DNA of 64,000 bases from Desulforhabdus amnigena (GTDB lineage Bacteria; Desulfobacterota; Syntrophobacteria; Syntrophobacterales; Syntrophobacteraceae): positions 2,631,001-2,695,000 of the forward strand of contig NZ_BSDR01000001.1 in the NCBI RefSeq assembly GCF_027925305.1. Direction: 5' to 3'. Position 1 is the stretch's first letter, and every line of letters starts with the position of its first letter. The notes beneath the pieces were generated by a model. That model was not told the origin of the DNA and ran no database searches. It saw only the letters and a program-made list of their open reading frames with translations. Both the position numbers and the translations under genes were made by a program. This document shows, piece by piece, positions 6,557 to 49,441 of the stretch.

Positions 6557-6592
6557 GATCAAATTTGACAATCTCAAGCTAAATGACCTGTC

Positions 6593-7537
6593 TTATTTCA
6601 AGGCCGTGGACTTACGGCTGAGCCTCACCAACCGCCGATGCGCTCCGGAAAATCTCAGGATCGACGTCCGGTCGGGAATTCCGCGGATGTCCACTCCCCT
6701 GCCGGCGAGGGCGTTCATCAAATCCAGCAGTTGGTTTCCGTTTTGCTTTATGGGCCCAAAACATCCCCTGCACGGAACCCTGGCGATGATGCAGCGGGGA
6801 GCTCCCCCGGAAGACCCTGCACACCCTCCACGAGTCACGGGGCCCATACAGATGAAACCCTGCTCCAGCAGGCACCGCATCCGACTGAGGGGCTCTGCCG
6901 CCGAGTATTCCGCACTTTCGGTGAACCGCCTCGTTTCTTTCACGATGCTCTTCCCTTCCCGCAGCGCCGGACAGGAATCACAGACGCTTTTTGCGTTTGC
7001 CGTCGGCCTCTCTCCCAGCAACAAGGCTTGGATTGCATTCCGAATGGAATCCGGATGAGGGGGGCAGCCCGGAAGATAGATATCGATCTTTATTTTTTCG
7101 TCCAGGGCATAGGTTCGGTCCAACAACGGGGGGACATTTTCATGGGGCGAAGGCGGCGGGCCATCTTTCTCCCATGGGCCGAAATATCGCAACAGAAGCT
7201 CTTCATTGGAAAAGGAATTGATCAATGCGGGGATGCCGCCATGAGTGGCGCAGGTCCCCAATGCCACGATGATCCGGCACTTTTTACGCATCTCCTCCGC
7301 CACGTTCATGTGTTCCCGGTTTCGAACCCCTCCGCTCACAAGCCCCACATCCGCTTCGGGTATCGTCAGAGCGGCCCCGCCTCCCTTCTCGCCGTAATAT
7401 TTATGGTCCATGAGAAGGGGCATGTGAACGACATTCAGTTCCGGCAGAAGATCCAGGAAAGCCGTTCCCATATTGAGGATGGCCATTTCGCATCCCGAAC
7501 AACTGTTCAAGCATTCCAGGGCTACCGTGAGGGGCAT
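6593..7537 (-). CDS. mvhG: Hydrogenase small subunit, MvhG/VhuG type
   Basis: 314 residues. Carries the Fe-S chain that moves electrons from the NiFe(Se) site to MvhD. LNSCSGCEM near residues 11-17 is the proximal-cluster motif, with later cluster Cys in GTCATHGG, LPGCPPH and GFICMGPVTRGGC. This fits the F420-non-reducing hydrogenase gamma subunit, which is cytoplasmic and lacks a Tat leader, as here. The start overlaps the end of mvhD by 16 bases, showing tight coupling. The repeat A copy separates it from mvhA. Confidence 0.88.
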   Translation of the reverse strand: MPLTVALECLNSCSGCEMAILNMGTAFLDLLPELNVVHMPLLMDHKYYGEKGGGAALTIPEADVGLVSGGVRNREHMNVAEEMRKKCRIIVALGTCATHGGIPALINSFSNEELLLRYFGPWEKDGPPPSPHENVPPLLDRTYALDEKIKIDIYLPGCPPHPDSIRNAIQALLLGERPTANAKSVCDSCPALREGKSIVKETRRFTESAEYSAAEPLSRMRCLLEQGFICMGPVTRGGCAGSSGGAPRCIIARVPCRGCFGPIKQNGNQLLDLMNALAGRGVDIRGIPDRTSILRFSGAHRRLVRLSRKSTALK

Positions 7538-7989
7538 GGGAACTCCTCCGTATCATCGCGATCCAGGCCGCCATTCGACCGGTAGGGTGAAGGCCCCAGG
7601 GCCCTCACGGTTTCCGTCATTTCCCGAACCGCCGCCACAAAACGGTCCGCCTCAGAAGAGGAACACCACACCAGGCGAAAGCGCTCCTGCTCCAATCCAA
7701 GGGTATCGAGCATCTCCTCCACCACCACCATCCGCATCTCGGCTTTCCGATTGCCGTCCACATAATGGCATTCCCCCTGCCGGCACCCGGTGACCATCAC
7801 ACCGTCGGCCCCCTTTTGAAAGGCCTCCACCACCAAATTCGAATGGACCATTCCGGAACACATGACGCGAATGATGCGCACGTTGGGGGGATACTGTATG
7901 CGCATAATACCCGCGAGATCCGCAGCCGCATAGGAACACCAATGGCAGTTGAAAGAAAGAATCCTGGGTTCAAAAGACATTTTTGGCAT
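7522..7989 (-). CDS. mvhD: MvhD-type [2Fe-2S] electron-transfer subunit
   Basis: 155 residues. Links the hydrogenase to HdrA. Conserved landmarks are FNCHWCSYAAADLAG, IRVMCSGMV, and GCRQGECHYVDGN. The site that can be Sec in some methanogen VhuD proteins is ordinary Cys here. ATG at 7989 lies one base after the hdrA stop, with GAGAG inside the end of hdrA; a second in-frame ATG at 7980 (MSFEP) is possible. The frame is open further upstream but that part overlaps hdrA and has no family character. Confidence 0.87.
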   Translation of the reverse strand: MPKMSFEPRILSFNCHWCSYAAADLAGIMRIQYPPNVRIIRVMCSGMVHSNLVVEAFQKGADGVMVTGCRQGECHYVDGNRKAEMRMVVVEEMLDTLGLEQERFRLVWCSSSEADRFVAAVREMTETVRALGPSPYRSNGGLDRDDTEEFPCPSR

Positions 7990-7990
7990 A

Positions 7991-10900
7991 TTAAGAAACT
8001 CTCGCCCCGGCATCTGCCTGTTCTCCCAGCGCCGCTTCCACCTGGGCGGAAAGCTGCCGGTAGGTGAATCCTCCAACGTCCACACCCTCCTTGGGGCATG
8101 TGGCCTGGCAGGATCCACAACCTTTGCACCGCGCCGCCTGCACCACAATGATTTTTTGATCCTTTTTTCCAGGAACATTTTCGAGGGTGATGGCATGGTA
8201 AGGGCACACATCCACGCAGAGGGCGCAGCCGTCGCATGTTTCGGGATTCACTCGAGCCTTGACGGAATCGAGGATCATGTGCTGGTTGCAGAGCACCGTC
8301 ACCGCCCTGGCCACGGCCGCCTGCGCCTGGGCCACCGATTCTTCTATGGGTTTAGGGTAATGTACAAGCCCCGCCAGGAACAGTCCGTCCGTTGAAAAAT
8401 CCACGGGACGAAGCTTGACGTGAGCTTCCTGAACGAAGCCATCCGCATCAATGGGAATCTTGTAGAGCTTTGCCAAATCAGCAATATCCGGGTTGGGAAC
8501 GATGGCTGTGGCCAGAATCACCACATCGGCCGGAATGCGCAGTGGTTCGTTCAATACGTGGTCCCGAACCACCACGTTCACGTCATTGTCCTGAATGAGG
8601 ACGTTGGGCTTCTCGTGCAGGTCATACCTGATGAAAACGACCCCCAGTTCACGGGCCTTTGTGTAAAGCTCTTCACGCTGCCCATATGCTCGAATATCCC
8701 GGTAAAGGATATAAACGTTACGGCGCGGATCTTCTTCCTTGAGGACAATAGCCGACTGAATGGAGTGGGTGCAGCAAACCTTGGAGCAATAAGGGCGCGC
8801 CGGTTCTCTTGAGCCCACGCACTGGATGAAAACGAAATCACGCCCGTATTTCACCCGTTCGTCCCCCACCAGGTGCAGTTTATCGAATTCAAGGGCCGTG
8901 AGCACCCTTTGGGAATATTCATAGCCGTATTCATCGGTCTTGAAGGCTTGAGCGCCCGTAGCAAGAATCGCCACCCCATGATCCACCGTGATGTTGCCTG
9001 CCTGCTTTTGAATGATGGAACGGAAATGCCCTACAGCCCCCTCCGCATGATTGACGGTGCTCTTGAGGTGAAGGGAAATGAATTCATGACTTTTGACCCG
9101 GGCAATGAGATTTTCCACAAAATCGGGTATGGATTCCTTCTTCCACGTCTCGGAGAGATGGCGGGCATTTCCTCCCAGTTCAGAACTCTTTTCCACGAGA
9201 TGCACCGAAAACCCCTGATCGGCCAGCCCCAATGCCGCAACCATTCCGGAAACACCCCCGCCGAGCACTAAAGCCTGCGGAATCACTCCTATCGAAACGG
9301 GAGGAACCGCTTCCAGGAGTGCAGCCTTGGAAACAGCCATGCGGACCAGGTCTTTGGCTTTGGCCGTTGCCGCTTCGGGTTCCGCCGCGTGAACCCAGGC
9401 CCCATGATTGCGAATGTTGGCCATCTCAAACAGACATTCATTGAGCCCCGATGCTCTGAGCGTCTCGCGAAAAAGCGGTTCGTGAGTCCGAGGGGTGCAT
9501 GCCGCCACCACAATCCGGTTCAAGGCCTTTTCCCGTATTCTCCGGCGCAGGATTTCCTGGGAATCCTGCGAACAGGTGAAGAGATTCCTCTCCACATGGA
9601 CCACGTGCGGCAAACACTTCGCATAGTCCGCAAGAGACTTCACATCCACCACCCCCGCGATATTGGAACCGCAGTGGCACACAAAAACCCCGATTCGCGG
9701 CTCCTCTCCCCTCACATCCCGTTCTGGAGGGAACTCTTTCTGCACTGTACGGCTGAAGCGCACATCCATGAGGGACATGGTTGCCGCCGCAGCCGCTGCA
9801 GACCCTTCCACGACAGACTGGGGAATATCCTTGGGGCCGGAAAATGTCCCACAAACATAGATCCCGGCGCGACCGGCTTCCGTGGGTGAAAAAGAAGAAG
9901 TGACGGCAAATCCATTGTGATTGAGCTCCACCCCGCTACACCGGGCGAGAGACCTGCACCCCGAGTGCGCCTCCATGCCCACCGACAGGACCACCAGATC
10001 GAACTCGTCCTGCGCCTGTTTCCCGTTGTCGGTGATGTAGCGGCAAAGAATCCTCTGATTTTCACTGGAGGGCTCCAGAGAATGCACCCTGCACCGGTGA
10101 AAACGGATGCCTTTTTCTTTAGCCCGTTCGTAATAGCGTTCGAAATTCTTGCCGTATGTCCTCAGGTCCATGTAAAAAATGGAGACATCCAGGTCCTTCT
10201 CAAGCTCTTTGGCGATCATGGCCTCCTTGATGGCGTACATGCAGCAGACGGACGAACAATAGCCATGAGAGGATTTATTGTAATCCCGGCTCCCCACACA
10301 CTGCAGAAAAGCCATCTTTTTGACCTTCCTGCCGTCCCCGGGCCGGATGAGCCGCCCTCTCGTAGGTCCCGACGCCGAGAGAATACGTTCCAGTTCCATG
10401 GACTTGACCACGTTGGGCAAAAGGCCATATCCCCAGGTGCGGGCACCTTTGGGGTCAAACGTCTGGAAGCCCGGAGAAAGGATGATGGAACCGACTTCGA
10501 GGGTCACATGTCGAGGAGCGTCATTCAAACGGACCGCTCCGGCAGGGCAGGCCTTCTCACACGCCCCGCACTTGCCCCCCTGTATTCCAATACATTCCTG
10601 CGGATCGATCTGATATTTGAGGGGAACCGCTTGAGGATACTTCAGATAAATTGCCTTGCGGACCTTGATTCCTTCGTTGTACCCGTCTTTGACTTCACGG
10701 GGGCAAACCCGCGCGCATTCTCCACAGGCGATGCATTTTTCCTTATCCACGTAGCGTGGATGTTCCTTGAGGCTGACTACAAAATGCCCCACTTCCCCCT
10801 CGACCTGCTCCACCTCCGTCAGGGTCATCAACTCGATATTCAAGTGCCGACCGCACTCGACCAGTCTGGGTGAGAGGATTCAGACCGAACAATCGTTGGT

Positions 10901-37578: not shown

Positions 37579-40146
37579 CTATTGCGGCCCGCTCTGCAGA
37601 TGATGAATCGGACTGCCGTCAACCGCGATCGCTTCCGCATTTTCGAGCTTCTTGACGTCCTCCTCCGTAAGTTTTGGACGGTCCACCTTGATCGTCAGCT
37701 TATCGAGTTTTGCGGTCAGCGGGAACGGCGGCAGGTAGTCGGCGTCGTTCACCCCGGTCAGGGTGTCGGAACCGATGTCGAAGCTTTCATCCCATTGCAG
37801 GATCATCGGCAGCGTGTGCGGCAGGGTAATGGTTTGGACCGCCTTGCCGTCCACCTTGAGCGTGCCGGTGCCGGAACGGCCAAGACCGCTCATGTTGTTG
37901 TAAGCGAGCGTGCCGATGCCGAGGCCGTCGTATTTGAAATCGAACTCGAGGGTGTGCTTGCCGGCTGTGAGCGCCTCCGGTCCCTCCCACTTCACGCGCT
38001 TCAAGTCAATGAGATTCCACAGGAACACCGGCTTGCCCTTGAGCAGGTAGAAGCCGTAACCGGCAAACCGTCCGCCGGAGGTCAGGATCATGCCTTCCGC
38101 ACCACCTTCAGGAACAGTGATGTCCGCCGTGATGGTATAGGAGGAATTAAGCAACATTGGGGAATCGCCCTGCGGCAGGCCGACCATCGGGCAGGTATAG
38201 ACAAACTCGGTGCGACCGGCGGTGATGTTCGGGCGCGGAGCCACGATGCGAGCCGCGACCGAGGCGTCCAGCGGGAAGACCTGGTGCTTTTTCGCCTCCT
38301 CGATGAACATCTTCTTCATCTCCTCCACCTTCTCCGGATGCTTGTCGGCGAGGTTCTGAGACTGGCTGAAGTCTTTGTTCAGGTCGTAGAGCTCGAGCAC
38401 CTGGTTGTTGAGCGGGTCGGGGTTGGCGGCGCCAAAGGCCTCCCACGGCGCGCGGTTCACCTGGGTGCTCAACAGCCAGCCGTCGTGATACAGGGCCCAC
38501 TGGCCAAACATTTCGAAATATTGGGTCTTGTGCCGTGACGGTGCCTTGGCGTTCTTCTCGTCGAACGTGTAGGCGAAGCTCGTGCCTTCGATGGGCGCCT
38601 GCTTGATGCCGTCCACGTATTCGGGCGCGGGGATGCCGGTGAGCTCGAGGAGGGTAGGCATCACGTCGATGATGTGCATGAACTGCTCGCGCAGCCCCCC
38701 CTGATCCTTGATGTGGCCGGGCCAGGAGACCGCCATGCACTGACGGACCCCGCCGAGCTTCGAGGCATTCTGCTTGAACCAGGTGAACGGCGTGTCAAAG
38801 GCCCAGGACCAGCCGGCAGACATGTGGTTGTAGGTCTGTTCGGTTCCCCACACGTCGTACCACTTCATCTGAACATCCACCGGCATCTGGTTGACGCCGT
38901 TGAAGAAGGCCACTTCGTTGGGTGTGCCGAGCGGGCCCCCTTCGGCGCTCGTGCCGTTGTCGCCGTTGATGTAGATGATGAGCGTGTCGTCGAGCTTTCC
39001 CATGTCCTCCACGGCCTGAATGACCCGGCCGATTTCGTGGTCGGTGTAGGCTTCATAAGCGGCGAATATCTCGGCTTGCTTAATGAAAAGCTTCTTCTCC
39101 TCGGGCGTCAAATCGTCCCAGTTCTTGAGGACCTTCGTGGGCCAGGGCTCCAGCTGGGTGTCTTTAGGGATCACGCCGAGGCGCTTCTGGTTCTCGAAAA
39201 TCCGCTCGCGCAGCTTGTTCCAGCCGTCGTCGAAGAGGTGCATGGCCTGAATCTTCTCGACCCATTCCTTGGTCGGGTGATGCGGCGCGTGCGTGGCACC
39301 GGGGACGTAATAGAGGAAGAACGGCTTGCTCGGATCGATCTGGTTGATCCGGTTCAAATAATCGATAGCGTCGTCGGCCATGCCGGTAATCAGGTTCCAT
39401 TCCGGCTTGCCCTCAAAAGGGTAGATTTGCGTCGTGTTGCGGAAAAGGTTCGGCTGCCACTGGTTCGCATCGCCACCCACGAACCCGTAGAAATACTCGA
39501 AGCCCATGCCGGTCGGCCATTGGTCGAACGGACCGGCCTGACTGGCGGCAAAGGCGGGCGTATTGTGGTCCTTGCCGAACCACGAGGTGGCATAACCGTT
39601 TTCCTTGAGGATGCGGCCGATGGTGGCCTTATCCCTGGGGATGATGCTGTTGTAGCCCGGGAAGCCTGTGGATTGCTCGGAGATCACGCCAAAGCCGGCC
39701 GAATGATGATTGCGGCCGGTGATGAGCGCCGCGCGTGTCGGCGAGCAGAGGGCCGTAGAGTGGATGTTGTTGTAGCGCAGCCCTGTCTTTGCAATGCGAT
39801 CCATCGTCGGGGTCGGGATGACGCCACCGAAGGTGCTCGGCACGCCGAAGCCCGAGTCGTCGGTCATGATGAGCAGGATGTTGGGCGCCTTCTTGGGAGG
39901 CACAATGCGCGGCGCCCACCAGGCTTTGGACTTGAGGGCGTCCTCCTCGATCACACCTCCGAACTTCGGGTCGGGCGCCGGGAGCTGCTTTCCATCGATG
40001 GTGGTGGTGGCGCTGGGCGAGCCCAGCTCGCCGGTCACCTGCTGGGCCATGACCGGCATGCTTGCCAGTAAAGCAGCAACAATGAACACCATGGTGAAGT
40101 CAACCACAGCGATCACTACTCTCAAGGTTTCTTTTCTTGATTTCAT
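37579..40146 (-). CDS. Type I arylsulfatase (formylglycine-dependent)
   Basis: 855 residues. Signal peptide to about 35 (VFIVAALLASMPVMAQQ). Metal site LLIMTDDSGFG and the modification motif CSPTRAALITGR (Cys converted to formylglycine) are intact, as are GKDHN and the later NGDNGTSAEGG. The C-terminal 200 residues form an extra beta-sandwich. It would hydrolyse sulfate esters in the periplasm. AAAGGAG precedes ATG 40146, so the longer frame is rejected. It lies 19 bases after the octahaem cytochrome gene. A formylglycine-generating enzyme is not identified here. Confidence 0.87.
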   Translation of the reverse strand: MKSRKETLRVVIAVVDFTMVFIVAALLASMPVMAQQVTGELGSPSATTTIDGKQLPAPDPKFGGVIEEDALKSKAWWAPRIVPPKKAPNILLIMTDDSGFGVPSTFGGVIPTPTMDRIAKTGLRYNNIHSTALCSPTRAALITGRNHHSAGFGVISEQSTGFPGYNSIIPRDKATIGRILKENGYATSWFGKDHNTPAFAASQAGPFDQWPTGMGFEYFYGFVGGDANQWQPNLFRNTTQIYPFEGKPEWNLITGMADDAIDYLNRINQIDPSKPFFLYYVPGATHAPHHPTKEWVEKIQAMHLFDDGWNKLRERIFENQKRLGVIPKDTQLEPWPTKVLKNWDDLTPEEKKLFIKQAEIFAAYEAYTDHEIGRVIQAVEDMGKLDDTLIIYINGDNGTSAEGGPLGTPNEVAFFNGVNQMPVDVQMKWYDVWGTEQTYNHMSAGWSWAFDTPFTWFKQNASKLGGVRQCMAVSWPGHIKDQGGLREQFMHIIDVMPTLLELTGIPAPEYVDGIKQAPIEGTSFAYTFDEKNAKAPSRHKTQYFEMFGQWALYHDGWLLSTQVNRAPWEAFGAANPDPLNNQVLELYDLNKDFSQSQNLADKHPEKVEEMKKMFIEEAKKHQVFPLDASVAARIVAPRPNITAGRTEFVYTCPMVGLPQGDSPMLLNSSYTITADITVPEGGAEGMILTSGGRFAGYGFYLLKGKPVFLWNLIDLKRVKWEGPEALTAGKHTLEFDFKYDGLGIGTLAYNNMSGLGRSGTGTLKVDGKAVQTITLPHTLPMILQWDESFDIGSDTLTGVNDADYLPPFPLTAKLDKLTIKVDRPKLTEEDVKKLENAEAIAVDGSPIHHLQSGPQ

Positions 40147-40165
40147 GCTCTTCTCCTTTCCTATC

Positions 40166-42532
40166 CTATGGTTCATTCTCCTGCTTCAGCGAATTCAGCC
40201 GCACCGCAATGGAATACTTGTAGATGTCCGGAATCCCCTTGGTCTCCAATGCCCTTTTGTAGATCCTCTCTGCTTCTTCCTTCTTCCCCTGCTTTTCATA
40301 GATGCTGCCAAGAAGGAGATAGGAATCTGAGTGAACGGGAATCCTGTCTACAAGGTCCTCCAACACCATGGCTGCGCTCCCGCTGTCTCCTTTCTGCTCC
40401 TGATAAAATGCCAGGGTATAAGCGTACCTGGGCTCGCCGGGCCTGAGCTCCGTTGCCTGCCGGCAGAAACCGATCGCCTCATCGATACGGTCCCTGGAGA
40501 GAATCACGCAGAGGTTGTACGCCGCCTGGGCCATCTGGGGATCGGCTTTGAGTGCCGCTTTGAGATGCCTCTCCGCCCCCTGCGTGTCGTTCTCTTCGGC
40601 CTTGAGCAACCCCATGTTGAAGTTTGCCTCAGCATTGTCGGGCGCCATCTTCAATGCCTTCCGAAGCATGTCGCCTGCCTTCCGGTTCTCGCCCAGGCGG
40701 GCATACGCCATGGATTCGTTGACCATGGCCCGCAGCGCATGCGGCTCCAACTTCAGGGCCGTGTCATACGAGGCAAGGGCCGACTTGATGTCACCGCGAT
40801 CCATGTAGTAGTTGCCCATATTGTAATGGGAGCTCCACTGGTCTGGGCGGGAGAGGATCGAGGAGAGGTACTCCCTGGTTGCTGATTCGACAGTTTTCTT
40901 TTGAGCATCATCCAGGGGAATGTTTTGATATCCTGCAAGAGACGCGGCAGCCCGAACACGAACGAGGCGATAGTCATCCCCGGTCGCATCTACAAGGGCT
41001 TGCACGGTTTCTTTCGTGGGTACATTTTGCAGGGCGGCGGCAGCTGCAGAGCGCACAAGGGGCGAAGGGTCCTCAATGGCCTCGATCAGCACCGGAACGA
41101 CCCGAGGGTCCCCGGAAGCCGGGATGATACGGATGAGCGATGTCGCAAAAACCTCGTCACGGTCCTTGCTCATCACGTAGCTCAGCATCTCCGGAAGCTT
41201 GCTCCAGTCCCGCCTGCGCCCGGCGTCAACGAGAGATGCCCGTGCGAGCAGCGGCGCCTGATAGTCCCGCGGGCGCCATTCACGGACGACCCTGTCGGCC
41301 CAGGCGGCATCCTTATCGGTATGGCAGATGTTGCAGGCATTCGGCGACTTGAAGGCAAGTGTCGCCGCGGGTGTGGGCGGCAGCATCGAGTGGTCGGTCC
41401 GGTTCATTCGAGCAAAGGAGGTCATGGGCATGTGGCAGGAGATGCACTTGTTTCCCGCACTCCCCTCCTTGTGATGCGTATGAACCGGTGCATCCTTCAC
41501 GTTTTTCTCGTGACAGGGCATGCAGGCCTCGTTTGCCTTCTCGTCGGCTTTAAACCGGTAGCGGCCGCTCGAAGTATGGCAGATTACACAATGGAGTGTC
41601 CCGGCCTTGCCACATGGACTCATCATCCATGAGGTGTACGTGTAGTTCTCTCCCAGGTCTCGACCGTCGGGGTAAAAGTCGGGGTCCTCCAGCGTCGCGA
41701 GATCGAAATGGTCGAAGAATCGATCACCCGGCTCAAAGTTTTCCGCGATTACGGACATCTTTGCATGACATATGGAGCATGCAGCGTTTTTTTGCTCAGG
41801 TGTGAAATTCTTCCAACTGATGATCTTGGGATCCTGGAGCTTCCGTCCCTCGGGGGTCTCCCGGAAAACCCGGTTGTGCTCTACCGAGGGGCCGTGGCAA
41901 GACTCACAATTGATGCCCGGTTCCGCCCAGGTAGTCTTGTACCTGTCGGTCTTGAGATCATAGTTCGTCAAGAGCTGACTCACATGGCAGGAGTAACACG
42001 CGGTGTTGAAGGTGTAGGGCGATTCCTTCCAGTGAACCGGCCGATCCGTCTCCCCTGCCGGGAAGTGGCGTATTCCACTGGCAGCCGTATCGAACCATTC
42101 CCTCTTGTTCAGATCATAGGCAACCGGCAGGGTCTGGAGTCTCCCCTTAGGGAAAGGCGTCAGGAAGTAACAAACATTCTTTCCGCCGAGGACATGTTCG
42201 ATCGGATACTTCTTTTTCCCCTTTGGAGCCGTTTCAATGACCACACCGCCTTTGAGATCGGCCTGATACTTAAATTCCCCGATCACCACTGCATTCTGCT
42301 GCTGAGTAAGCCGGGCTTTGGCAAATTCAGGCGTATAGGGCTGCATGGCGAGGCCATGCAACGACGTAGACCAGAGCTGATAAAATCTCTCATGACATCC
42401 CCGACAGCTCACCGAACCGGCAAAACCGGAGGCAGGCGGGCGTGTGTTCTGTTTCTTTTCAGCCGCCACCACTGCTGAACCCATAAGAATCATGGCGAGA
42501 AGAACCATCATGGGCGATTTCAATGTTTTCAT
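40166..42532 (-). CDS. Octahaem c-type cytochrome with HEAT and TPR tail
   Basis: 788 residues. Signal peptide to about 24, then eight CxxCH haem motifs: CRGCH, CYSCH, CESCH, CSICH, CVICH, CMPCH, CISCH and CNICH, within about residues 43-400. A HEAT-like segment (VLIEAIEDPSPLVRSAAAAA) follows, then at least five TPRs (YNMGNYYMDRGDIKSALASYD and similar). Periplasmic or outer-membrane-associated redox protein; the repeats probably dock partners. ATG 42532 is chosen because AGGTGG is 6 bases upstream. Cotranscribed with the arylsulfatase. The electron acceptor is unknown. Confidence 0.88.
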   Translation of the reverse strand: MKTLKSPMMVLLAMILMGSAVVAAEKKQNTRPPASGFAGSVSCRGCHERFYQLWSTSLHGLAMQPYTPEFAKARLTQQQNAVVIGEFKYQADLKGGVVIETAPKGKKKYPIEHVLGGKNVCYFLTPFPKGRLQTLPVAYDLNKREWFDTAASGIRHFPAGETDRPVHWKESPYTFNTACYSCHVSQLLTNYDLKTDRYKTTWAEPGINCESCHGPSVEHNRVFRETPEGRKLQDPKIISWKNFTPEQKNAACSICHAKMSVIAENFEPGDRFFDHFDLATLEDPDFYPDGRDLGENYTYTSWMMSPCGKAGTLHCVICHTSSGRYRFKADEKANEACMPCHEKNVKDAPVHTHHKEGSAGNKCISCHMPMTSFARMNRTDHSMLPPTPAATLAFKSPNACNICHTDKDAAWADRVVREWRPRDYQAPLLARASLVDAGRRRDWSKLPEMLSYVMSKDRDEVFATSLIRIIPASGDPRVVPVLIEAIEDPSPLVRSAAAAALQNVPTKETVQALVDATGDDYRLVRVRAAASLAGYQNIPLDDAQKKTVESATREYLSSILSRPDQWSSHYNMGNYYMDRGDIKSALASYDTALKLEPHALRAMVNESMAYARLGENRKAGDMLRKALKMAPDNAEANFNMGLLKAEENDTQGAERHLKAALKADPQMAQAAYNLCVILSRDRIDEAIGFCRQATELRPGEPRYAYTLAFYQEQKGDSGSAAMVLEDLVDRIPVHSDSYLLLGSIYEKQGKKEEAERIYKRALETKGIPDIYKYSIAVRLNSLKQENEP

Positions 42533-44190: not shown

Positions 44191-45384
44191 CTATACTTGC
44201 CGGTATGCAACCTTATCTTTTGATTCTCCTTGTCCTTGGGGTTTGGCTGGTGGTGAACCGATTCTCGGTTGTGGCTTTACCGTCATCTCCTGCATCATCT
44301 GAAAAAGATTTCTGTAGAGCAGACAATAAGGATCTTTGCGAAATATGTCGCCGTGGACCGTGTACGCCCGCACCGGGCAGCCTCCGTGGCAAATGCTCAG
44401 ATAGTCGCACTCCAGGCAATCCTCTCTCTGGATCAACAGGCCGGGTCGCAACTGGAGGCTTCGGCGGGCAGGGCTGTTCTTCAACAGATCGGACAGGCCG
44501 ACATCGTCAAAGATATTGCCGAACCGAAATTCCGGGTAACTCGTCACCCAGCAGTCGCATTGAGCGACGTGTCCTCTCGGGTCGATGCAGACGAACTCGT
44601 TGACGCAGTTTTCCCGCCAGATGCAGACGAAGTCCTTGTTCCCGCGGAGGAAATAATCCATCAGCTTACTGAAAGGACCGATCCTCACACCCTTCTGAAA
44701 GCCCCGTTCAAACCAGATGGTTGCAAGATCCACAAAAAACCGGGTCAGCCGATGGTGGTCCAGGGGAAAGCCTTTCTTCACATCGTTAAGAGACCCTCCT
44801 GGAAAGGGCGTATTGATCTGAAGATCACGGATTCCCAGATCATCGACGAAATGGGAATAAAAGCGCTCCGCGCCCAGCTCGAGAGTCTGTTCATTGGGGA
44901 TCGATATGACTCCGACTTCGATGCCGGCATCGACGGCCTCCCGCATGTTCCGGGTCCAAACCCTCTCGTATTCCCTGGCGCCACCATTTTTGAGTTTTCT
45001 ATGGAGATTGGGAAAGTCCATGGAAGAGCCCACACTGTTTCCGAACATTTCCGAGAGCACCCTATTCCATTTCTTGCCGTATGCGATCATGTTGGACTGG
45101 AGGAAATGGCCAACCCCCTTGTTTCTCCCATCGGCAATTCTCTGAATGATTTCGTTAGCCGCTTCAAACCATTCGGGAGGCAGGGTCATGACCTCTCCTC
45201 CCTGCCAGTAAATGGACAGGAATTCGATATGGTTCCGACTCAAGTAATCCATGACCTTGTGTGCCACTTCCGAAAGCTGATCCAGGCCGAGGCGATGGTT
45301 GGTCTTGGTCTCGAAGCAGTAATCGCATTCGGCGTTGCAGTTCAAAGTAGGAAGGAGGATGAGAGAAAAATGGTCGCCTGTCAT
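44191..45384 (-). CDS. Radical SAM/SPASM peptide maturase, GRRM-like
   Basis: 397 residues. The radical SAM cluster motif CNAECDYC (Cys 16, 20, 23) is followed by WQGGEVMTL. The C-terminal SPASM region has CIWRENCVNEFVC, CDCW and CLECDYLSICHGGCP, which would hold two auxiliary Fe-S clusters. Such enzymes modify peptides made by the ribosome. The neighbouring W-x-N repeat precursor points to the GrrM type, whose relatives make cyclophane cross-links at aromatic-x-x triplets. It starts 5 bases after the companion gene. It could in principle act as a sulfatase maturase, but its closest context is the precursor. Confidence 0.85.
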   Translation of the reverse strand: MTGDHFSLILLPTLNCNAECDYCFETKTNHRLGLDQLSEVAHKVMDYLSRNHIEFLSIYWQGGEVMTLPPEWFEAANEIIQRIADGRNKGVGHFLQSNMIAYGKKWNRVLSEMFGNSVGSSMDFPNLHRKLKNGGAREYERVWTRNMREAVDAGIEVGVISIPNEQTLELGAERFYSHFVDDLGIRDLQINTPFPGGSLNDVKKGFPLDHHRLTRFFVDLATIWFERGFQKGVRIGPFSKLMDYFLRGNKDFVCIWRENCVNEFVCIDPRGHVAQCDCWVTSYPEFRFGNIFDDVGLSDLLKNSPARRSLQLRPGLLIQREDCLECDYLSICHGGCPVRAYTVHGDIFRKDPYCLLYRNLFQMMQEMTVKPQPRIGSPPAKPQGQGESKDKVAYRQV

Positions 45385-45389
45385 GACCG

Positions 45390-46211
45390 TTACTTTCCGC
45401 CCATGGAGTGAAATGCCGCAAGATCCCCTCGCAGCTCCTCTGCCGCGTCCTTGATGGTCTCAAAGAGGGCCTTCACGCCGTCACATCGATATTCCCGGCT
45501 GGGCCATTTGAAATAGCAGGAACAATTCCCAAGGAACTCGCAACTGCTGCACTCGCGTTCTTCAGCAATGAGCTCGTCTCTGAATCGCGTCACAAACGAG
45601 GTGACTTCACCTTTCAAATCGCCCTCCGCGAATCGTTTGGAAAGAGTCTCCTTTCCCTCATCCGTGATGTAACGATTATGAGAAGGGTCTTCTTCCTGTA
45701 TGGCCCAAAGGGTCACAGGGTCTCCCCGATAGAAAGCCAGGAACAGGCTGTGGAAATATTCAATGGGTTGAGAAACCGTGGCATGACGCAGATACCAGTG
45801 CGCTGCCCGTGACAGCTCTTCAAAGAGGAACGGATCGGGTTGGAATACTTGCAACTTAACCGCAAAGTTCAATGAAACCGCAAGCTTCACCACTTTGCTG
45901 AACCCGGGAGCGACGGGGACACTCACGCGGACCGGGTGCCTGGCCAGGAGCGGCGAGCACTGATAAAGCAGGGGGAGATCCCTTTCCGGATCTTGAACCA
46001 CCAGATCTACGGGAATATTCTGTCCCCATAGCGTCAATCGCTCAAGATCAGGGTGAATGGAAAGCACCTGGACATACGAAACCCTTGCCAGATCTTCCAT
46101 GGAAAGCCCTTCCACGATCTCTGCAGGGTCCCGGGAGCGGACGATCAGGCTTCGACCGGCGTATGTCTCAACCATTGAGACAGGAATGTTGTAGACAACA
46201 GAATCCGTCAT
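45390..46211 (-). CDS. Companion protein of the peptide-modifying system, unknown
   Basis: 273 residues. An alpha/beta N-terminal part (YVQVLSIHPDLERLTLWGQ) and a helical middle lead to a C-terminal Cys cluster: ECSSCEFLGNCSCYFKWPS, then YRCDGVK, much like a SPASM auxiliary-cluster site but without a radical SAM core. It may bind the precursor, carry electrons or build a cluster. AGGA lies upstream. Sandwiched between the precursor and the maturase with 5- and 33-base gaps, so one operon. I do not recognise a named family. Confidence 0.7.
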   Translation of the reverse strand: MTDSVVYNIPVSMVETYAGRSLIVRSRDPAEIVEGLSMEDLARVSYVQVLSIHPDLERLTLWGQNIPVDLVVQDPERDLPLLYQCSPLLARHPVRVSVPVAPGFSKVVKLAVSLNFAVKLQVFQPDPFLFEELSRAAHWYLRHATVSQPIEYFHSLFLAFYRGDPVTLWAIQEEDPSHNRYITDEGKETLSKRFAEGDLKGEVTSFVTRFRDELIAEERECSSCEFLGNCSCYFKWPSREYRCDGVKALFETIKDAAEELRGDLAAFHSMGGK

Positions 46212-46244
46212 GGTCGTTCATCCTGGAAGATGCTTCTTCTCACG

Positions 46245-46607
46245 TTAAAACCGATTGACCCAGGCACCCCCGCGATTGGCCCAGGCGCCACCTCGATTGA
46301 CCCAGGCCCCCCCACCATTCGCCCAGGCGCCGCCCCCTACGACTCGATTCGCCCAGGCGCCACCGGGCGTGACCACAGCACCTCCGCCACCTACACGGTT
46401 CGCCCAGCCGCCACCCCCGACACGGTTGGCCCAGGCTCCGGCGCTCGCCTCCCGCTCCGCCCCCAACAGTGCGTCTCCCAAAAGAACGCTTCCAATGACG
46501 ACCATCGACCACTTCCCGAGCCCGAGCAGAAACCCCCTTCGATCCATCAACTCTTCTTCTCTTTTGCCGTTTTCCTCACTCTGCGGCCCTTTGAAATCCT
46601 TATCCAT
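46245..46607 (-). CDS. Gly-rich W-x-N repeat precursor with twin-arginine-type leader (GrrA-like)
   Basis: 120 residues from ATG 46607, which has GGAGG 7 bases upstream. Residues 1-20 are charged; MDRRGFLLGLGKWSMVVIGS is a twin-arginine-like signal with a hydrophobic core. After about residue 58 come seven repeats of GGAWANR or close variants: WAN five times, WVN twice. Cyclophane (triceptide) maturases act at aromatic-x-Asn/Asp/Ser triplets, so each repeat is a potential cross-link site. First gene of the operon. Low complexity could inflate apparent similarity, but the regular W-x-N spacing is specific. Confidence 0.82.
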   Translation of the reverse strand: MDKDFKGPQSEENGKREEELMDRRGFLLGLGKWSMVVIGSVLLGDALLGAEREASAGAWANRVGGGGWANRVGGGGAVVTPGGAWANRVVGGGAWANGGGAWVNRGGAWANRGGAWVNRF

Positions 46608-46725
46608 ACCCAGCCTCCATTTCTCCATCGAATGAACCCAGCCAAGAAGGCGGCAAAAAAGTAGTCTCCGGCTCCTCCGACAACAACCGGACGCATTGTC
46701 TTTAGATGCCGCATTCGCATCAGTA

Positions 46726-47292
46726 TTATTTGGGTTGCTCGGCACCTTGCTGCTGCTCAGCACCCAGTCTGGAAAAGTGCATACTCACAATTCGCCATTT
46801 GCCCTTGATCCTTTCGAGAGCACCGGACATGTTGAACGCACGCTCCCTTTTTTCGTTCTTCACCATGCCCTCCATGTTGATCGTAGCGGCAAACCAGGCA
46901 AAATTGCCCCTGGAGGCGGCATGAATCCAATCGTATTTAAAATTCAAGGTATTTGCGTCGAACCTGTTGAAAAACTGATTGTAGGCTCCCCCGATGGCTT
47001 CTTCTCCCACGTAAATCTCTCCCGGGCCGGTGCCCATAAGCACGACGTTCGGGCCGGGTGCGTAGGTTTCCATCACTCCCTTGAGATCCTGGGCATTGAA
47101 CGCCTTGTTGTGCTCCATCACCAGGGCCTTGACATCGGCATTGGCATTTGTGTCCGGCTTTCGCGCAAAGCAGGGCGAAACCATGGCAAAGGAGACCAGC
47201 ACTATAAAAAGCAAACCTTTTTCAAGACCATAATCTTTCCTCTCTTTTCGTGTGGGTGATGAGCGAAAATCGAAATCCGGTTTCCCGGTCAT
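46726..47292 (-). CDS. Exported NTF2/SnoaL-like protein
   Basis: 188 residues. A charged start (1-26) leads to a signal segment LLFIVLVSFAMVSPCFA, then the NTF2-like fold: ALVMEHNKAFNAQDLKGVME, GEEAIGGAYNQFF, and KGKWRIVSMHFSRLG at the end. The family binds or modifies small ligands, or acts as an oligomeric scaffold. It lies 118 bases upstream of the precursor gene on the same strand and could be part of its operon. The long N-region makes the start uncertain; no alternative start is in frame. Confidence 0.7.
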   Translation of the reverse strand: MTGKPDFDFRSSPTRKERKDYGLEKGLLFIVLVSFAMVSPCFARKPDTNANADVKALVMEHNKAFNAQDLKGVMETYAPGPNVVLMGTGPGEIYVGEEAIGGAYNQFFNRFDANTLNFKYDWIHAASRGNFAWFAATINMEGMVKNEKRERAFNMSGALERIKGKWRIVSMHFSRLGAEQQQGAEQPK

Positions 47293-47718: not shown

Positions 47719-47789
47719 TGGGTGACAGGATTGAACCTGCGCCTGCTGGTGACATCGTGTAAAACATGTCGGTTTGACGTCTCTCCACC
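47719..47789 (-). other. Degenerate tRNA-like relic
   Basis: On the minus strand GCAGGTTCAATCCTGT looks like a T-arm (loop one base short), followed by CACCC, and GGTGGAG at the far end can pair with part of it. A GACAT/ATGTC stem around TTTTACAC would be the anticodon arm. Pairing is incomplete, so it is at best a remnant of a tRNA 3' end. Confidence 0.25.
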
Positions 47790-47803
47790 ACAAGGATTTC
47801 CCA

Positions 47804-49441
47804 ATGAGTGCAGAGCAGTCAGGCTCCCCCCCAACTGCCCTGGGCAGTGACAGGGAGTTCCCCGAGGAGATCATTAGAGGTCAGCTCGCAACGGTGCTTG
47901 CAAGCCCGGAGTTTGCCCGGAGGCCTGTGCTGCGAAGCTTTCTCTCCTTTGTGGTGGAAAAAGTCCTGGCTGGGCAAAGCCATGAAATCAAGGGTTATAC
48001 GGTGGCCACCGAGGTGTTCGGCAGGAACGAGAACTTTGACGGCCAGAAAGATTCTGTTGTTCGCATCCAGGCCGGGCGACTTCGCCGGGCGCTGGAACGC
48101 TATTACCTGTCCTATGGCGTGCAAGATCCGGTGAAAATCGAAATACCCAAGGGAAGTTATGAGCCGAGGTTCCATAGGTTTTCCACTCCGGAATCCGGCA
48201 AGGGAGGATCCCGGCCGGAACGGGGAGGTCCTGCGTTCACCCTATCCCATGGACCATCAGTGGCCGTCATGCCTTTGGTCAACCTGACAGGGGACCCGGG
48301 ACAGGAATACTTCACCGACGGTTTGAGCGAAGAGTTTACCCGTGAGCTTGCACGGTTTCAGAACCTCCGCGTCGTAGCCAGTCACTCCACCCTTCAAATG
48401 AAGGGAGTGAAGGCTTGCGCCAGGGAGATGGGGCAGAGGTTGGGGGCTCGGTTTCTTGTGGAGGGAAGTGTGCGCAAGGAAGCCGATCAGGTAAAAATCT
48501 CTGTTGGATTGATCGACACGACGACCGGATTGCAAATCTGGGGGGAACAATATCGCCGTGAGCTTAGAGCTGAAAGCCTCATCACCTTGCAGGAAGATAT
48601 CGGCAGGAGGGTGGCGAGTAAGGTTGGGGACCTGTTTGGAATCATCTCCACACAACTGTCCAAGGAATCCCAAAAAAAACCACCAGGGACGTTGACCGCT
48701 TACGACGCATTGCTCAGGTACCACCATTATCAAACATCACTGTCTGCGGAGGCTTTCGCAAGAGCATTCAAGGCACTGGAGGATGCTGCTGTCGAAGAGC
48801 CGGAGAGTGGACTTGCCTGGTCCCTTCTCGCGAACCTCTACGCCAACAACTATGCCCTGGGACACTCTCAGATGAAGACAACCCTTGAGACGGCCATGGC
48901 CATGGCTCGTAAAGGAGCCTCTCTGGACCCCGGGAACCAGTTGGTCCGCGCTATTCTTGCCTTTGTCCTGTTTTTACAGAACGACAAAGACAATTTTTTC
49001 CGGGAGGCTGAGGAATGTGTTGCCCTCAATCCCAACAATCCAGCCATCATCGGTTTTATCGGGTGGGCAACGGCACTGTATGGTGACTGGGAACACGGTC
49101 TTGCTCTGCTGGAAAAAGGGATTGAGCTGAATCCCCATTTTCCGGGCTGGTATCACCTTGCACCCTATTTCGACTGCTATCGACAAGGAAGGTACCCGGA
49201 AGCCTTTCGAGAGGCTCGACAATTCAACATGGCCCAGCTCTTCTGGGACCCGCTGCTGCAGGCCGCCGCCCTGGGTCAAATGGGAAGGGAGTCGGAGGCT
49301 GGATCGGAAATTGACAGGCTGCTCGTGTTGCGGCCGGACTTCCCCACTTGTGGGTCCCGCCTGATCGGCTTTTATGTCAAGCCCCCTTCCCTGATCGAAG
49401 CCACTCTCGATGGTCTGCGAAAAGCGGGGCTCAAGACGTGA
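47804..49441 (+). CDS. TPR protein with FlgO/TolB-like domain and N-terminal DNA-binding-like segment
   Basis: 545 residues from ATG 47804, with AAGGA 7 bases upstream. The N-terminal 100 residues (FLSFVVEKVLAGQSHEIKGY, then VFGRNENFDGQKDSVVRIQA) are the module often found in proteins misnamed adenylate cyclase. Then comes SVAVMPLVNLTGDPGQEYFT, the FlgO/TolB-N-like domain, and six or more TPRs (LAWSLLANLYANNYALGHSQ and onward). No cyclase catalytic domain is present. Possibly a signalling or regulatory scaffold. It diverges from the radical SAM operon. Confidence 0.75.
   Translation: MSAEQSGSPPTALGSDREFPEEIIRGQLATVLASPEFARRPVLRSFLSFVVEKVLAGQSHEIKGYTVATEVFGRNENFDGQKDSVVRIQAGRLRRALERYYLSYGVQDPVKIEIPKGSYEPRFHRFSTPESGKGGSRPERGGPAFTLSHGPSVAVMPLVNLTGDPGQEYFTDGLSEEFTRELARFQNLRVVASHSTLQMKGVKACAREMGQRLGARFLVEGSVRKEADQVKISVGLIDTTTGLQIWGEQYRRELRAESLITLQEDIGRRVASKVGDLFGIISTQLSKESQKKPPGTLTAYDALLRYHHYQTSLSAEAFARAFKALEDAAVEEPESGLAWSLLANLYANNYALGHSQMKTTLETAMAMARKGASLDPGNQLVRAILAFVLFLQNDKDNFFREAEECVALNPNNPAIIGFIGWATALYGDWEHGLALLEKGIELNPHFPGWYHLAPYFDCYRQGRYPEAFREARQFNMAQLFWDPLLQAAALGQMGRESEAGSEIDRLLVLRPDFPTCGSRLIGFYVKPPSLIEATLDGLRKAGLKT

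Follow-up and report, generated by a model that had tools for sequence, protein, structure and literature searches.

A four-gene locus in Desulforhabdus amnigena

Four genes lie one after another on the minus strand of the window (the whole 64,000-nucleotide stretch of the D. amnigena genome that was analyzed, to which window coordinates refer), in the order exported NTF2-like protein, precursor, companion, and SPASM radical-SAM maturase, at the place given in the original prediction. The NTF2-like gene (46726..47292) encodes a member of the SnoaL_3/NTF2-like family (PF13474, 5.2e-16, 59.5 bits against a gathering cut-off of 22) with a hydrophobic export segment near its N-terminus. Its true start codon is uncertain; the open reading frame has an unusually long N-terminus ahead of the signal-like segment (47170-47292), and an ATG in a different frame near the start, close to a run of A, suggests a start-site or frame ambiguity. 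The precursor gene (46245..46607) likely begins at the ATG at 46607, just downstream of GGAGG, which gives a protein of 120 amino acids composed, according to its translation and the homologue alignment, of a Tat leader and a Gly-rich core with seven W-x-N sites. The leader (residues 1-56; 46440..46607), backed by the leader alignment and the leader profile, contains DRRGFLLGLGKWS and the cleavage-like EASA, and the core (residues 57-120; 46248..46439), for which residues were counted, consists of seven GGAWANR-type repeats with a W-V-N-R-F end. The companion gene (45390..46211), 33 bp from the precursor stop, encodes a 273-amino-acid protein assigned by its predicted fold and Cys motifs to the pseudo-radical-SAM/SPASM type, with one four-Cys (Aux-II-type) site. 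The 397-amino-acid SPASM radical-SAM maturase, identified by PF04055 and invariant Cys ligands, is encoded at 44191..45384 and starts 5 bp from the companion stop.

In the eight loci with longer neighborhoods, the NTF2-like gene, the companion, and the maturase were always kept, and seven of the loci also had the precursor; the surrounding genes (for FadL, a cytochrome, a sulfatase, and a cyclase-like protein) were not conserved. A genome search, which had been proposed as a check, found all four genes recurring together across Desulfobacterota without these flanks, and the radical-SAM system and its W-x-N repeats turned out to be kept as a unit with the Tat leader and the extra partner protein, both of which had been singled out as distinctive. 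An adenylate-cyclase/TPR-like gene (47774-49441) was considered as a further member and rejected, being not conserved and having a TIGR04510 match far under the cut-off. A search of the locus for RNA elements and tRNA found none. No model in NCBIfam or Pfam covers the precursor or the companion, for which no family of either collection scored above its cut-off. The four-gene set is an uncatalogued one, common to sulfate-reducing and wastewater bacteria.

The Trp-rich core and the Tat leader of the precursor

The seven W-x-N sites of the window precursor (at W59, W68, W85, W95, W102, W109, and W116) include all 7 Trp and all 7 Asn of its core, which is devoid of Cys, so that thioether chemistry of the sactipeptide or ranthipeptide type was ruled out for this protein. 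Among 11 precursors, every core Trp (85/85) belonged to a W-x-N, and 85 of the 87 core Asn were placed two residues after a Trp. For 48 precursors, the corresponding count was 402 of 477 Trp in W-x-N/D (378 N and 24 D), against a mean of 66 and a maximum of 94 after shuffling. Since this larger set was gathered using W-x-[ND] and RR as filters, and was thus partly chosen by motif, the 11-precursor count is the fairer statement, together with the homologue alignment, in which W and N were invariant and the linkers variable. Some of the 75 Trp of the larger set that fell outside W-x-N/D came from Competibacteraceae. The precursor has the conserved aromatic-x-Asn/Asp/Ser motifs by which triceptides are recognized, and it is accompanied, as they are, by a SPASM radical-SAM enzyme. 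The Desulfobacterota precursors finish with W-[VI]-N-R-[FY] (window 46248-46262), an ending that resembles the C-termini of outer membrane proteins; the C-terminal aromatic residue is missing in Competibacteraceae.

The leader carries RR at residues 23-24, KWS at 32-34, and an AxA-like cleavage site between EASA and GAW. Across 37 aligned leaders, RR and WS were invariant, and the conservation (RRxFLxxL followed by [KR]-WS) reached well past the Tat consensus. By sequence, the precursor is a predicted Tat substrate: it has the twin-arginine signal, the hydrophobic stretch, and the AxA site, and the genome encodes Tat machinery, TatC included. A literature search that covered few subscription papers returned nothing relevant on Tat-exported radical-SAM RiPPs. 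The leader provides a simple handle with which further members can be found.

The maturase scores below the cut-offs of the curated peptide-maturase models it matches

The maturase contains CxxxCxYC, eight auxiliary-cluster Cys, and D277; with the three SAM-cluster Cys, every cluster ligand is present. All of these (C16, C20, C23, C254, C260, C276, C323, C326, C332, C336, C354, and D277) were invariant in 29 maturases, and the catalytic Asp of anSME bears the same number as D277. The predicted structure (pLDDT 87.8) was matched by anSMEcpe with a Z score of 35.7. The maturase scored 120 bits against the anSME model (TIGR03942; cut-off 349), 116 against DynA (450), and 102 against DarE (650), and it did not pass the XyeB model. 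With GrrM (TIGR04261) it reached 75.2 bits against a cut-off of 310, and its precursor matched no Gly-rich-repeat precursor model, so that the GRRM membership suggested in the original prediction was not supported. None of the curated NCBIfam peptide-maturase cut-offs was passed among the matches listed; the only model passed there was the general SPASM-domain model TIGR04085. The anSME, DynA, and DarE models fit the maturase better than the GrrM model does, so a different Trp chemistry is possible. It might fall into cluster 19 or 63 of an earlier survey, which have Aro-Asn and Aro-x-Asn motifs (PMC9062424). Phage matches to the maturase were distant radical-SAM enzymes only (22-26%), and a search of plasmids for the companion gave no match.

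The companion is a predicted pseudo-radical-SAM protein

The AF2 model of the companion (pLDDT 91.3) matched ChlB (9gmc) and anSMEcpe (4k38) with Z scores of 14.4 and 14.3, respectively, over about 252 residues, far above the value of about 7 obtained with unrelated barrels. The CxxxCxxC motif was missing in all 46 companion relatives, and C-x2-C-x5-C-x(8-16)-C, represented in the window by C221, C224, C230, and C243, was present in 45 of them. Profile comparison with the maturase (hhalign, E 1.8e-5) brought the Cys motifs into register and equated the four-Cys motif with Aux-II. By its predicted fold and the absent CxxxCxxC, the companion is a pseudo-radical-SAM/SPASM protein with an anSME/ChlB fold and no SAM-cluster motif. 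Since ChlB, its best structural match, was crystallized together with the leader of its precursor, according to the entry titles, the fold type is one able to hold a leader.

The set recurs in distant bacteria and is split in Competibacteraceae

Scanning with the companion retrieved 44 loci, from Desulfobacterota, Geobacter bins, Pyrinomonadaceae, Methylococcaceae, Chromatiaceae, Accumulibacter, and many Competibacteraceae. Among 98 relatives, the maturase occurred in 10 genomes, 9 of which had the companion and 8 the precursor; the mismatches were a decayed locus (G012) and contig-edge fragments (G096 and G040). At one locus (L017/L062), the precursor is lost, the maturase frameshifted, and the companion interrupted by a TGA, a co-decay that is suggestive only, because the assembly is a draft. 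Trees of the maturase and of the companion (29 sequences each) broadly agreed and had the Competibacteraceae, Pyrinomonadaceae, Geobacter, and Desulfococcaceae/Desulfobacterales groups in common, with weakly supported deeper forks and with Accumulibacter and Methylococcaceae positioned differently in the two.

In Competibacteraceae, a family known from wastewater plants, the precursor adjoins the companion and the maturase is placed elsewhere. Of 15 genomes, 13 carried the maturase orthologue (56-58% identity) in trans, one of these in two pieces on different contigs; in the other two genomes, both drafts, none was seen. Nine of 12 separate maturase loci had a Tat and W-x-N precursor alongside the maturase, and none was seen beside it within the stretch examined in the remaining three (L095, L098, and L102). 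Homologous operons lacking the precursor had been named as an outcome that would speak against the prediction; the Competibacteraceae loci without a maturase keep the precursor, most separate maturase loci have their own, and the one locus that has lost it is damaged in the maturase and the companion as well. Each Competibacteraceae genome gave two to six precursor matches (a few being pieces of one gene), and an NTF2-like gene adjoined the precursor in 16 of 30 precursor loci opened. It follows that one maturase probably serves several substrates per genome in this family and that the NTF2-like protein goes together with the substrate rather than with the maturase.

Some Competibacteraceae loci have further neighbors. 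A small protein that appears by eye to be SpoIIAA/STAS-like follows the precursor at L096:9368-9748 and L153:581-1036, and in several genomes (L033, L042, and L051) a divergently transcribed gene upstream of the precursor and companion encodes a patatin-like protein whose C-terminal part looks, by eye, like an outer membrane barrel. A locus titled as a Synechococcaceae cyanobacterium (L059) has a Competibacteraceae-like companion and precursor and was probably mis-binned.

The companion tracks the leader, not the core

A leader profile run against 395 genomes found matches in 8 at E<1e-6, with three additional weak matches between 1e-4 and 1e-3. The companion profile found 7 of the same 395 genomes, all inside the leader's 8; in the eighth (G040), the precursor lies at a contig edge. 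The overlap has a hypergeometric probability of 2.8e-14, a value that ignores kinship. As the leader query contained the leaders of every companion genome but G148, only the G148 match is independent: this genome encodes two Tyr-rich precursors with the leader, and its companion and maturase lie on a separate contig. Starting from divergent companions in four additional genomes, we found precursors that combine this leader with different cores, among them Y-x-N repeats (G399), W-G-N-R (G426), and W-R-C, in two copies (G356). As far as sequences tell, the companion tracks the leader and not the core, since the core may be of the W-x-N, Y-x-N, or W-R-C kind and the maturase diverges as well. It is mainly for this reason that we assign leader recognition to the companion. 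The pairing of leader and companion with other cores, the invariant WS of the leader past the Tat consensus, and the pseudo-radical-SAM nature of the companion all go beyond what had been predicted.

Proposed pathway and alternative explanations

Taking together the gene set and its co-occurrence, the motifs, the cluster ligands, the predicted folds, and the link between leader and companion, we infer, with a probability of roughly 0.7, that a radical-SAM system here modifies a repeat protein exported by Tat, and that the companion reads and guards the leader, the maturase makes cyclophanes, and Tat exports the product. The companion, devoid of a SAM cluster, would bind the RRxFLxxLxKWS leader, present the substrate to the maturase, and hide the Tat signal until modification is complete. 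The partner proteins of bufferins have likewise been proposed to mask a signal peptide for as long as modification is under way (PMC12452194). In the cytoplasm, the maturase would form a bond between every Trp of the core and the beta-carbon of the residue two positions later, Asn or Asp, and the window precursor would thereby become a chain of seven three-residue cyclophanes. OscB bonds Trp C7 to the C-beta of Asn/Asp and XncB bonds Trp C6 to Asn, and the spacing and residue choice in the precursor match the sites of both (PMC11002830). Release would expose the signal, and Tat would export the finished, braced protein, to be cut after the AxA site and to act in the periplasm or cell envelope with the separately exported NTF2-like partner; that it is a structural or binding protein of the envelope is a guess.

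The closest relative of the maturase, both in NCBIfam and in the PDB, is anSME, and a CSPTR-type (Cys-type) arylsulfatase is encoded nearby (window 37579-40176), which prompted the reading that the maturase is an anSME or close kin acting on this sulfatase, with the Trp-rich protein an unmodified neighbor. A sulfatase also comes after the maturase in L035, and no convincing anSME is encoded elsewhere in the genome, none scoring above the cut-off. We nevertheless rejected this role as very improbable: the maturase itself is far under the anSME cut-off, L035 is the only locus scanned with a sulfatase (no sulfatase is present at the other Desulforhabdus locus), the relocated maturases are still accompanied by a W-x-N precursor and not by a sulfatase, and one FGE-family gene is present elsewhere in the genome. 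Least credible of all is an ordinary structural role for the Trp-rich protein, with its linkage to the radical-SAM gene an accident; Gly-rich repeat proteins readily arise, but the repeated co-location and co-loss across distant phyla, even after the genes were separated, and the invariance of W and N amid varying linkers argue against it.

Two other alternatives concern parts of the pathway. The change at W-x-N could be of another kind (a different Trp-Asn geometry, a Trp-Arg (i+3) bond, or epimerization or hydroxylation of Asn), considering that DynA and DarE, among the closest models, make other Trp cross-links, that Arg directly follows Asn in 266 of 402 sites, and that Aro-x-x-Asn candidates have been described (PMC9062424). 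The fixed W-x-N/D spacing, the preference for Asn or Asp alone, as with OscB (PMC11002830), and the frequent replacement of that Arg by Gly, His, or other residues make such a change rather improbable. As for the companion, the main alternative is an electron relay, in which electrons would move, in either direction, between the maturase and the one Aux-II-type cluster of the companion. The four Cys it retains are those of Aux-II, and in PapB the second auxiliary cluster participates in intermolecular electron transfer (PMC10470005), but a relay would not need to track the leader so exactly, and the maturases here retain their own Aux-II ligands. We consider a relay unlikely, if less so than a different bond, and it could be combined with leader binding; the leader could also be bound by the maturase itself. 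Leader binding by the companion, which we prefer, invites a broader and tentative proposal, to which we give slightly less than even odds: a modular export-coupled platform in which a catalytically dead, single-cluster companion reads and gatekeeps RRxFLxxLxKWS and different SPASM enzymes encoded next to it make different cross-links on swappable cores (W-x-N, Y-x-N, or W-R-C). Modification would then be proofread before folded export.

Comparison with known systems and variant loci

By analogy, the window system probably works like the GrrM/OscB triceptide system (TIGR04261, 3-CyFE). In both, a SPASM radical-SAM enzyme is encoded next to a Gly-rich repeat precursor with Trp-x-Asn/Asp sites, which are cross-linked by OscB (PMC11002830) and predicted to be so in the window. 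Unlike GrrM/OscB, the window set has a Tat leader with KWS and pseudo-radical-SAM and NTF2-like partners, one maturase of its type appears to serve several precursors, and its score is far under the GrrM cut-off; the curated NCBIfam Gly-rich-repeat precursor models matched neither the window nor the Competibacteraceae precursors. With anSMEcpe (4k36-4k39) the maturase shares the closest solved fold, the cluster Cys set, and an Asp at 277, but its partner is a W-x-N precursor instead of a sulfatase. DarE and DynA, the next-best NCBIfam models, belong to systems with Trp-centered cross-links (darobactin and dynobactin) but with different precursors. Neither system is known to depend on a Tat leader. 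The bufferins, RiPPs modified by MNIO enzymes, likewise have a signal peptide as leader and a proposed masking partner (PMC12452194), but rely on Sec, MNIO, and Cys where the window set has Tat, radical SAM, and Trp. GeoRSP (separate SPASM protein, TIGR04304) and pseudo-SAM/SPASM proteins such as TIGR04347 are also cases of an additional SPASM-type protein next to a radical-SAM enzyme, but the companion matches none of these models.

Several variant loci add minor observations. Both Tyr-rich precursors of G148 (L183:7833-8887, plus strand) contain a lipobox-like LPMAGC, making them possible lipoproteins; a gene resembling that of peptide methionine sulfoxide reductase lies close by. At L071:5435-6333 (plus strand), two paralogous precursors that carry the Tat-KWS leader and W-R-C or R-C repeats neighbor a different SPASM radical-SAM enzyme (6574-7710, plus strand) and a companion (8855-9670, minus strand), possibly a thioether-type or metal-binding form of the platform. 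At L072:6926-8995 (minus strand), a 689-amino-acid fusion of a maturase-like SPASM domain with a second radical-SAM domain is encoded next to a divergent companion and one more radical-SAM gene.
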